From positions 809,578-873,577 of the forward strand of contig NZ_CP026995.1 in the NCBI RefSeq assembly GCF_013407185.1: a stretch of 64,000 nucleotides of DNA. The letters run 5' to 3'. A model generated the notes under the pieces. The model did not search any database, had not been told where the DNA came from, and saw only the letters and a program-made list of their open reading frames with translations. The stretch is from Nitrosopumilus ureiphilus. GTDB lineage: Archaea > Thermoproteota > Nitrososphaeria > Nitrososphaerales > Nitrosopumilaceae. The position numbers were made by a program, and so were the translations under genes. Positions 50,194 through 54,786 of this stretch are shown here, one piece after another (position 1 is the stretch's first letter; every line of letters starts with the position of its first letter).

Positions 50194-50987
50194 CAGAATC
50201 TGGTAAAATCACGACTGATGTTGATTCACTACGTTCAGAAATACGTGACAAAAGCGTTCGAGTTATTGATGTTAGACGTGAGAATGATTACAAACAAGAT
50301 CACATCCCCTCTGCAGTTAATTTGCCCCTAGCAAATCTTTTGTCTGACGATAGTCCTGAACGTGTTTTAAAACTCGTAAACTCTATGGGAATTGATGATG
50401 AGACCCCTGTTGTAGTCTATGATGATACATTTGGTGCATTAGCATCAAGAGTTGCCTGGACCTTGGAATATCTTGGACATTCAAATGTAACATTACTTGA
50501 AACCACTTATAGTCATTGGAAATCCCTTGGTTTGGAAAATGATTCACAAACTCCTGAAATACAAAGCAAAGTGCACTCTATGCACTTGCGACCTGAGATT
50601 TTAGCAACATCTGATTATCTGGAAAATGCAAAAACCAGAGATGATGTCATACTAATTGATAATCGCGAACGACTAAATTTTCTTGAACAACATATTCCTG
50701 GAGCGATTAGTCTTCCTTATAGGACTCTTGCTAGCAATGACAATATTTTACGCTCAAAAGAGGATATGAAACGACTACTTGATAATCGAGGAATTACTGG
50801 GGATTCAGAAATCATTACTTATTGTGGAAGTGTAGGTACTCTTTCTGGGTTGGCATATTATGCACTAAAATCAGTGGGTCTACCTAATGCAAAATTATAT
50901 GTTCGCTCATTTAAGGAATGGAAAAGTCTTCAAAAACCTACAGAAAAACAAGAAGATGCAAGTTACTGGGATTTATCTGCAGAATAA
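50181..50987 (+). CDS. Two-domain rhodanese (sulfurtransferase)
   Basis: A 268-aa thiosulfate/mercaptopyruvate sulfurtransferase with two rhodanese domains. The first (VIDVRRENDYKQDHIPSAVNL) has Asp where the catalytic Cys would be (VYDDTFG), so it is structural. The second has Cys215 in ITYCGSVGT and is the active one. The ATG at 50181 overlaps the nirA-like stop by 13 nt. It may supply or handle sulfane sulfur for the reductase's operon. Confidence 0.92.
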   Translation: MCCLTESGKITTDVDSLRSEIRDKSVRVIDVRRENDYKQDHIPSAVNLPLANLLSDDSPERVLKLVNSMGIDDETPVVVYDDTFGALASRVAWTLEYLGHSNVTLLETTYSHWKSLGLENDSQTPEIQSKVHSMHLRPEILATSDYLENAKTRDDVILIDNRERLNFLEQHIPGAISLPYRTLASNDNILRSKEDMKRLLDNRGITGDSEIITYCGSVGTLSGLAYYALKSVGLPNAKLYVRSFKEWKSLQKPTEKQEDASYWDLSAE

Positions 50988-52105
50988 TTAATTTCATTTC
51001 TAAGCTTTTTAGTAATTGTTACTTCAATGTTATCAAATAGAACTAACATTTTTTCTTTATTTTCAATTAGATAATCTTCGCCTCTATCATTTAGTCTAAT
51101 TTTCCATAATCTTATTTCTCTGTGTTCATCAAAGAAATTCTCTATCATTTGTTCGCCTGATTTTGCAGGGTTTATGAATATGTCAAAAGTATCTATTGTC
51201 TTTTCAATGTCTTCTTCTTCTATTGCTTCTCTAACTGATTGAATTGCATGACTTAGTTCTTTCAAATTCTTTACTGGTTTTGGCAAAGTCTTTCTTGTAA
51301 TTCCAAACAATCCTTTCTTTTCTTTTCCCATTTTTTCTGCAACATTTGGTGCAAGATCATAAATTGGAATTTTACTTAGACCGTCACGTTTTTCATTTTG
51401 CACAATTAATCCTTTTTCTAATAATTTTCTCAAAGCAGTTTCTGCATCTGCCTTATCTAGAAATGTTGTCCATACAATTGAACCCAATGTGTGATACCCT
51501 TGTCTGACTGATTCTAAAACTACAACCTCTTGAATTCTTTTGAATCCTTCCTCAATTCTAACATTCGCAAAATCTTTGTCTCGAATTGATCTTCTTGCAT
51601 TTTTTACATCAATCTCAATGGAACGTTTCAAGGCTTCCAATGATTCTGGTACTTGATTAAGTAATGACAAGAAACAAGCTTTGTTGTACCATGCCATTGC
51701 ATATGTTGGATCTGATTCAATTGCTTTATCGACTGAATCTAATGCTTTTGAAAAATTTTTTTGCTCATAATGTACTAGTCCTTTTAGATTCCAAGCTTCT
51801 GGATTTGTAACATCTATTTCCAGAATTTTATCATATACTTTTAGTGCTTCTCCATGATCTTCTAGATGGAATCTTGCATATCCTAATTTCATCAATGTTT
51901 CTATGTTATCTGGTTCAATTCGTAATGCTTGTTCAAATACAACTACTGCATCTTCTAATTTTTCGTCTGCCATCAAATTGATTCCTTTTTTAAACAACTT
52001 CTTGCGATTATAGTCTGAATCAACTAGGCTTGTCTCTTCGACTTTATCCTTTTTTACTTTGGATTCTTCTATTTCCTTTGATTTTTTCCCGAAAGGTTTC
52101 TTCAC
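50963..52105 (-). CDS. TPR-repeat protein
   Basis: A 380-aa protein with about four TPR motifs at residues 35-170 (ALRIEPDNIETLMKLGYARF, AIESDPTYAMAWYNKACFL), a basic Lys-rich N-terminus and a C-terminal part with a winged-helix-like segment (LRKLLEKGLIVQNEKRDGLS). TPRs mediate protein binding, and the end could bind nucleic acid. Convergent with the rhodanese, overlapping 25 nt. Confidence 0.8.
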   Translation of the reverse strand: MKKPFGKKSKEIEESKVKKDKVEETSLVDSDYNRKKLFKKGINLMADEKLEDAVVVFEQALRIEPDNIETLMKLGYARFHLEDHGEALKVYDKILEIDVTNPEAWNLKGLVHYEQKNFSKALDSVDKAIESDPTYAMAWYNKACFLSLLNQVPESLEALKRSIEIDVKNARRSIRDKDFANVRIEEGFKRIQEVVVLESVRQGYHTLGSIVWTTFLDKADAETALRKLLEKGLIVQNEKRDGLSKIPIYDLAPNVAEKMGKEKKGLFGITRKTLPKPVKNLKELSHAIQSVREAIEEEDIEKTIDTFDIFINPAKSGEQMIENFFDEHREIRLWKIRLNDRGEDYLIENKEKMLVLFDNIEVTITKKLRNEINYSADKSQ

Positions 52106-52226
52106 TAGCTCAAATTGGCATTTTATCTAGATAAATACCATCCTTAATTGAGCCTAATCCTGTTTCTATGTCTGTATGGATTCAAGCATCTAAATACAGA
52201 AATACTTGAAATATACACAAACGAAT

Positions 52227-53849
52227 GTGTCATCTCAATCTCGAATCGAAATTCAAGGACAGGCGCCTTTTAAACAATCAGGAGTCTATGAAGTTCAAAT
52301 TTCGATTGCTGATAACAAGCCCTCTGATGATGCAATCCGTACCAAACAATTCTCTGCTTTGTGGCGTGGAAACTTTCACCTAAGAGTAAAAGATGGCATA
52401 TTTTCTGAGAAAATCGGCTCTCCTGATAATCCACTTCCATCGTCAATTGAAACGCTTGACACTATTTGGATCGTTGTAACTGATCTGTTTTCTTCATTAC
52501 ATTCTGTATTTGATGTTCCATTGAAAAAATCCTCAACACAAATGCCAACTGAAACTCGAACTGAAACTAAAACAATTTCTGAAAATCAAAAAACCGAACA
52601 ACCCTCAAAACCAACTGTAAAATCTACACGTTCTACAAATTTTCCTGGTGACAAAGGGCCCACTGGTCCACCAGGGCCTATTGGTGACAAAGGTCCACTA
52701 GGACCTCCTGGACCACCTGGACCTATTGGAAATAAAGGACCTGATGGTCCACCAGGACCTTCTGGTGACAAAGGAGCAACTGGTGACAAAGGTCCTCAAG
52801 GTGACAAGGGTATTTCTGGTGACAAAGGAGCAACTGGCGACAAAGGATCAACAGGTGACAAAGGTGACAAAGGTGACAAAGGAATTGTGGGGCCTCCTGG
52901 CGACAAAGGAGAAAAAGGTTCAACTGGTCCACTCGGTGACAAAGGAGCAACTGGATTAAAAGGTCCACTCGGTGACAAGGGAGAAACAGGTCCAACTGGA
53001 TCTCCTGGTGACAAAGGACTTTCTGGATTAAGAGGATCGCCTGGAGAAAAAGGTGACAAGGGTCAACAAGGACCTCCTGGTGACAAAGGATTAACTGGTC
53101 CTACTGGACCACCAGGAGAAAAAGGCCCTACTGGTTTATCTGGTGTACAAGGAGAAAAAGGTCTTCAAGGTCCATCTGGACCAATTGGAGAAAAAGGTCC
53201 ATCAGGTCCACTCGGTGACAAAGGACCCATTGGCCCACCTGGCCCACATGGTGACAAAGGATTAACTGGTTCAACAGGTCCACTAGGTGACAAAGGACCC
53301 ACTGGTCCACCCGGACCGATTGGAGAAAAAGGTAATCGTGGTGTTGAAGGACCAATTGGAGAAAAAGGTCCACAAGGTCCGCAAGGTCCTGCCGGAGCTA
53401 AAGGTCTGACAGGAGTGCCAGGTCCACAAGGTGAGAAAGGACCTACTGGTCCACCCGGACCAATTGGAGAAAAAGGTCCTACTGGTCCAATAGGTTCTAC
53501 TGGAGAAAAAGGTCCACAAGGTCCGCAAGGATCACAAGGTGAACGTGGAACTACAGGCCCTTCTGGAGAAAAAGGTCCACAAGGTCCACAAGGAATCCAA
53601 GGTCCACAAGGTGAACGTGGCCCTACTGGTCCAATAGGACCGATTGGAGAACAAGGCCCAGTAGGAGGTCAAGGCCCAGTCGGTCCTGCAGGTCCAAGAG
53701 GACCACCGGGACCACCAGGAGAAAAAGGACCATCAGGCGGAATGTCGTCTGAACAAAAAGCACTATTCAAAGATTTGTTAGAAATTTTAACAAACAAAAA
53801 TGTAATCTCTACTGAAGAACAAATTAAATTGATGAGTTATCTTTATTGA
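52227..53849 (+). CDS. Collagen-like Gly-X-Y repeat protein
   Basis: A 540-aa protein in three parts. An N-terminal domain of about 120 residues ([20 protein letters not shown]) is predicted beta-rich. It is followed by a spacer and about 120 uninterrupted Gly-X-Y triplets, many of them GDK, GEK and GPP, and a short helical C-terminus ([18 protein letters not shown]). Charged KGD/KGE triplets stabilise collagen helices without hydroxyproline. No signal peptide is obvious. GTG 52227 is preferred over TTG 52206. Collagen-like proteins occur in bacteria and phages, but are rare in archaea. Function unknown. Confidence 0.9.
52645..53740 (+). repeat. Collagen-type Gly-X-Y coding repeats
   Basis: A 9-bp-periodic coding repeat (Gly at every third codon) with variable X and Y. 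Larger blocks such as the [13 protein letters not shown] unit recur, showing expansion by duplication. Confidence 0.93.
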
Positions 53850-54450: not shown

Positions 54451-54780
54451 TTATCGTCTTTTTGCAGTTTTTCTCTTTGGAGCTGCTTTCTTAACAGTAC
54501 GTTTTGCTTTACTTGCAGTTTTTCTCTTTGGAGCTGCTTTCTTAACAGTACGTTTTGCTTTACTTGCAGTTTTTCTCTTTGGAGCTGCTTTCTTAACAGT
54601 ACGTTTTGCTTTAGCTGCAGTTCTTTTTACTGCTTTCTTAACAGTACGTTTTGCTTTAGCTGCAGTTTTTCTCTTTGGAGCTGCTTTCTTAACAGTACGT
54701 TTTGCTTTAGCTGCAGTTCTTTTTACTGCTTTCTTAACAGTACGTTTTGCTTTACTTGCAGCTTTTCTTTTTGTAGCCAT
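54451..54780 (-). CDS. Histone H1-like Lys/Ala-rich repeat protein
   Basis: A 109-aa protein, almost only Lys, Ala, Arg, Thr, Val and Pro, made of repeats of AKRTVKKA with AAPKRKTA or VKRTAAK inserts (six copies of AKRTVKK). This resembles the tails of eukaryotic H1 and bacterial HC1/AlgP-type DNA-condensing proteins. It should bind DNA by charge. ATG 54780 is used; the ORF could begin six nt upstream. It may act with Alba and SMC in chromosome packing (inference). Confidence 0.85.
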   Translation of the reverse strand: MATKRKAASKAKRTVKKAVKRTAAKAKRTVKKAAPKRKTAAKAKRTVKKAVKRTAAKAKRTVKKAAPKRKTASKAKRTVKKAAPKRKTASKAKRTVKKAAPKRKTAKRR

Positions 54781-54786
54781 TAACAA

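Follow-up and report, generated by a model that had tools for sequence, protein, structure and literature searches.

Collagen-like proteins in prokaryotes

In prokaryotes, the triple helices of collagen-like proteins are stable even though they lack hydroxyproline, and the well-studied bacterial examples are surface proteins (PMC8968730). Among the described systems, the streptococcal proteins Scl1 and Scl2 (NF038329 and NF038330) combine an N-terminal globular domain with a long unbroken Gly-X-Y rod lacking hydroxyproline, are predicted to be homotrimers, and are exported and named for their LPXTG anchor. Other systems are the Lcl adhesin (NF046116), the phage collagen-like tail fibres (PHROG 6320, 5073 and 819) and, in archaea, a collagen-like adhesin of Ca. 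Nitrosotenuis chungbukensis, reported as one of the surface proteins whose levels rise when salinity is low, and seen in the proteome (PMC13037477, 2026).

The protein described here is encoded in a 64,000-nucleotide stretch of the Nitrosopumilus ureiphilus genome (contig NZ_CP026995.1, positions 809,578 to 873,577), referred to below as the window. It shares with Scl1 and Scl2 the N-terminal globular domain, the long unbroken rod without hydroxyproline and the predicted homotrimeric state, but differs in its head, in an additional helical C-terminal tail and in having no anchor or signal peptide, and it falls below the NCBIfam cut-offs of both (217.3 of 325 and 193.8 of 400 bits). Neither the hydrophobic N-terminus nor the LPxTG motif of an LPXTG-anchored adhesin was found in it. 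The Lcl model is matched over the repeat only, at 240.1 bits against a cut-off of 500, the head and tail not being shared. Phage tail fibres likewise share the Gly-X-Y repeat but contain no relative of the head, and the context of the window gene is, unlike theirs, neither viral nor mobile. Exported collagen-like proteins from six loci of the same order also contain PF01391-type repeats; unlike the window protein they have a signal peptide or anchor and other domains, and their runs are shorter and mostly lack lysine. On the strength of its repeat the window protein belongs with the collagen-repeat proteins; it lies outside the named adhesin families and is a new variant.

Gene and domain architecture

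The gene spans 52227..53849 on the forward strand and encodes a 540-residue, 53-kDa protein from a GTG start. The ORF scan gives a longer frame, from TTG 52206 to 53849, but GTG 52227 is most likely the true start, since a GTG (28 loci) or ATG (2 loci, L019 and L022) is kept across 30 same-genus loci and an in-frame TAA lies just 5' of the start codon in several relatives; the frame and coordinates first assigned to the gene were therefore retained. The head gives a single match in its own genome, making the gene single copy, and every collagen-domain match of that genome falls within it. Upstream lies a conserved 22-bp promoter-like element, TCTAAATACAGAAATACTTGAA (52189..52210, forward strand; 17-38 nt 5' of the start codon), which is nearly identical upstream of the collagen-like gene across same-genus loci and whose position would suit an archaeal promoter of a leaderless transcript. 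A role for this element as a regulon box was ruled out because it occurs once in the window's own genome, with no second copy at up to three mismatches.

The repeat occupies aa 141-506 (52647..53744, forward strand) and comprises 122 consecutive Gly-X-Y triplets, close to the 120 or so estimated in the initial annotation, with a Pfam Collagen (PF01391) score of 194.3 bits against a gathering cut-off of 27.2. The most frequent residues are Pro (56), Asp (19) and Glu (16) among the 122 X positions, and Lys (34), Thr (20), Gln (16) and Pro (15) among the 122 Y positions. In complete relatives, defined as those including the tail (n = 67; 7,891 glycines in total), the run extends over 87-185 triplets (median 121) and is unbroken in 67/67. 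Five pairwise codon comparisons all gave a pN of 0.000 for the glycine codons, at a pS of 0.26-0.49, and a pN of 0.06-0.26 for the X and Y positions. The invariant glycines and the unbroken runs are strong evidence for translation of the repeat and for selection maintaining an uninterrupted Gly-X-Y run, which in turn suggests a triple helix.

The 0.8-Mb genomes of one genus (L142 and L184) keep the head and have an apparently shorter collagen run. L142 has a diverged tail, and unknown bases at an assembly gap interrupt its otherwise in-frame repeat; L184 stops at a contig edge. Degenerate collagen had been considered in this genus, and was partly withdrawn since the L142 repeat holds these unknown bases.

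The repeat is flanked by two very different segments. On its N-terminal side is a variable, polar and probably disordered linker (aa 101-140; 52527..52646, forward strand), with a pLDDT of 31-39 and a pN of 0.09-0.48 in the five pairs, the least constrained part of the protein. On its C-terminal side, two helices (aa 508-523 and aa 529-539) are predicted in the last 34 residues (aa 507-540; 53745..53846, forward strand), in agreement with the short helical end noticed earlier. This tail is nearly invariant among relatives (pN 0.01-0.06, five pairs), and may serve as a trimerization and registration cap.

The N-terminal head (aa 1-100; 52227..52526, forward strand) is strongly constrained at the codon level in the five pairwise comparisons, and head and tail are both under tighter constraint than the X and Y positions. 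An AlphaFold2 model built on a 59-sequence alignment gives a six-stranded beta-sandwich (pLDDT 90.9, pTM 0.83), confirming by prediction the beta-rich N-terminal domain proposed from the sequence. This confident model suggests an Ig/FnIII-like fold, and the domain appears to be an orphan, with no clear relative in the sequence or structure libraries. Searches of Pfam, PHROGs and NCBIfam gave nothing above threshold for the head; the only matches, sub-threshold ones to Pfam, were scattered among the 59 members and taken as chance. Searched against PDB sequences, the single sequence found nothing and the profile found 9zk0 alone, at E 0.54, while Foldseek searches of the model against PDB and BFVD gave nothing at E <= 0.001 (best E 0.038). 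The best solved structural match is SgrA (5fce_A; 3.3 Å over 89 aa), the ligand-binding region of an enterococcal surface adhesin, with a Z of 7.1 that lies within the noise range of the tool. A weak plasmid match was found in Runella, at E 0.3.

Distribution and inheritance

The Nitrosopumilaceae, ammonia-oxidising archaea of ocean and soil, are among the most abundant organisms of the sea. Within this family the collagen gene is near-universal and vertically inherited. A genus-level profile matched 128/151 family genomes, including 92 of the 97 of high quality and representing 22/22 genera, and a broader head profile matched 60/63 Nitrosopumilaceae versus 0/335 other genomes of the phylum (398 sampled). 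Named relatives belong to Nitrosopumilus, Nitrosarchaeum, Nitrosotenuis and other Nitrosopumilaceae; close ones are Nitrosopumilus, which supports the earlier placement of the DNA in an ammonia-oxidising archaeon. The accompanying statement that collagen helices are rare in archaea needs qualifying: 34/34 Nitrosopumilaceae genomes of one sample had collagen-domain matches, and other families of the order had them sporadically. Even genomes as small as 1.1-1.2 Mb retain the gene, with 87 triplets, and a rod kept in genomes of this size must repay its cost.

Six family genomes with no head match were examined for the divergent TPR gene that neighbours the collagen gene. In G014 and G544 this neighbour is absent too, and so the whole locus was not found; in three others the TPR gene lies at or near a contig end. 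In G181 an intact TPR gene is flanked by an unrelated methyltransferase-like gene and no collagen gene is present, making a true loss likely. The collagen gene would therefore not be strictly essential.

This pattern bears on the proposal, raised in the initial annotation, of a phage-derived tail fibre, and on the related one of a fibre from a contractile injection system. The matches to PHROG tail-fibre families that suggest such an origin fall on the repeat only. The search for phage relatives of the head that had been suggested alongside the proposal found none in viral contigs, phage records or PHROGs, and BFVD gave no confident fold match. The gene is moreover near-universal, single-copy, syntenic and vertically inherited, and the contractile sheath (PF04984) is absent from its own genome and from all 44 of the high-quality family genomes searched. 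Because there is no viral relative of the head, no confident structural neighbour and no sheath, both origins are considered highly improbable. A sheath-type PF04984 protein (L191, G151:C17:43238-43720; E 4.6e-17) occurs in a lower-quality Nitrosopumilaceae genome; that genome has no head match, and the protein may derive from a virus or from contamination.

Export signals and cellular location

Hydropathy analysis found neither a signal peptide nor a membrane segment, as had been judged by eye; the maximum Kyte-Doolittle value over 19 aa is 1.27 and lies inside the head. The 540-aa protein also contains no cysteine, no N-X-S/T N-glycosylation sequon and no LPXTG motif, and inspection of relatives, whose starts were assigned by homology, revealed no signal peptide either. 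Averaged over this signal-less collagen family, lysine makes up 13.8% of the X and Y residues, and the net charge of the repeat ranges from -8 to +10. The six exported-type proteins of the order (L177, L178, L180, L181, L182 and L186) have an N-terminal signal peptide or membrane anchor, recognised by eye and hydropathy, with runs of 14-52 triplets, a negative net repeat charge and, in 5/6, little or no repeat lysine. One of these, from the window's genus (L177, 2194 onwards, minus strand), is a 1189-aa protein with GEQ repeats and no repeat lysine, and co-occurs with the signal-less collagen gene in one genome.

The absence of a signal peptide, together with a lysine-rich, near-neutral repeat unlike that of the exported-type proteins, is modest evidence, given a comparison set of only six, that a cytoplasmic location is somewhat likelier than export, while absent signal peptides are also compatible with unconventional export. 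Of the three roles initially offered, the internal fibre would be compatible with these data, the exported adhesin would have to do without an export or anchor signal, and the phage fibre is disfavoured as described above.

The strongest competing explanation is a surface rod or adhesin that is exported without a cleavable signal peptide, is held at the S-layer through either its head or its tail, and extends outward for about 100 nm. Such a rod, and with it a role in attachment or envelope stability, is a real possibility, though put somewhat below an even chance. It would agree with the surface location of the well-studied bacterial proteins (PMC8968730), with the Ig-like fold modelled for the head, and with the identity of the head's weak, noise-level structural neighbour as a bacterial adhesin. 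It would also agree with the expression of the N. chungbukensis MY2 adhesin, which is up at low salinity and present in the proteome (PMC13037477). Of the MY2 proteins scanned, the homologue of the window gene (L139:6007-7371) scores highest against the adhesin model SclB (186.6 bits versus 48.9 and 43.7). However, MY2 encodes a second collagen-like protein, L174, with a signal-peptide-like N-terminus and a probable continuation in L173, and the published adhesin can therefore be assigned to neither gene. If it is the homologue of the window protein, the authors of that study place the protein at the surface. The surface explanation is further weakened by the lack of a signal peptide, transmembrane segment or LPXTG motif here and of recognised signals in the relatives inspected, by the absent glycosylation sequon, and by the contrast in lysine content and charge with the exported proteins of the order. 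L173 and L174 contain Ala/Lys-rich and FG-GAP-like repeats, and are probably one large gene split across two contig ends.

A proposed collagen rod

The reading preferred here is a family-wide core structural protein that forms a homotrimeric rod of about 105 nm, most likely a cytoplasmic scaffold; taken as a whole it is given an even chance. Three chains would associate, probably via the invariant two-helix tail, and zip into an unbroken triple helix. With the 0.286 nm rise per residue of the collagen triple helix, the 366 residues of the repeat would span about 105 nm. Flexible linkers would carry three Ig/FnIII-like heads at its end, and the rod would act as a stiff spacer or tether setting the distance at which the three binding heads are presented. 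It would remain cytoplasmic, serving as a scaffold or internal rod and possibly working together with the TPR protein encoded divergently beside it. We infer trimerization, rod length, cytoplasmic location, TPR partnership and tether function from the sequence.

The same internal location could serve a different purpose, with the Lys/Asp/Glu-rich triple helix, rather than the heads, as the working surface of a rod that organises nucleic acid or membrane. The lack of an export signal and the lysine content, about 14% of X and Y residues, are in keeping with this. That lysine is, however, roughly offset by Asp and Glu, and with a net repeat charge near zero there is no strong electrostatic case for DNA binding; the X and Y positions are also less constrained than the head and tail. 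This function is regarded as improbable.

For the cytoplasmic scaffold, a collagen acting inside the cell would, if true, be very unusual. The more far-reaching form of the proposal, in which a cytoplasmic collagen triple helix of about 100 nm is a near-universal cell-structural element of this archaeal family (e.g. a scaffold or cytoskeleton-like ruler), is advanced tentatively and is thought rather unlikely. If the protein is instead exported, it would point to an unrecognised export route in Nitrosopumilaceae archaea. As natural modules for the ends of a trimeric rod, the orphan head and the tail would also be new.

Gene neighbourhood

The divergent neighbour of the collagen gene (50963..52105, minus strand; 121 bp between the starts) encodes a protein with Pfam TPR matches, and adjoins it in 76/78 testable loci. 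Beyond it on the 5' side are genes for a rhodanese, a nitrite/sulphite reductase and a Thi4-family protein, and on the 3' side are a small Lys/Ala-rich ORF, a DRG-type GTPase (MMR_HSR1 and TGS domains) and a HAD phosphatase. This housekeeping gene order is conserved, with no viral or mobile features seen around the locus. The TPR protein is a possible partner of the collagen rod, but their adjacency may reflect only general gene-order conservation, because other neighbours are equally syntenic, the GTPase being kept in 35 of 36 loci. The TPR protein was found in family genomes and in one genome of another family (G060), which has no collagen-domain match, suggesting that the TPR gene is probably the older of the two and weakening its candidacy as an obligate partner. 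A 111-aa ORF of the window (54451-54786, minus strand) consists of near-identical KAKRTVKKA-type Lys/Ala/Arg repeats that have no Pfam match and resemble the tail of a histone H1-like or nucleoid protein.
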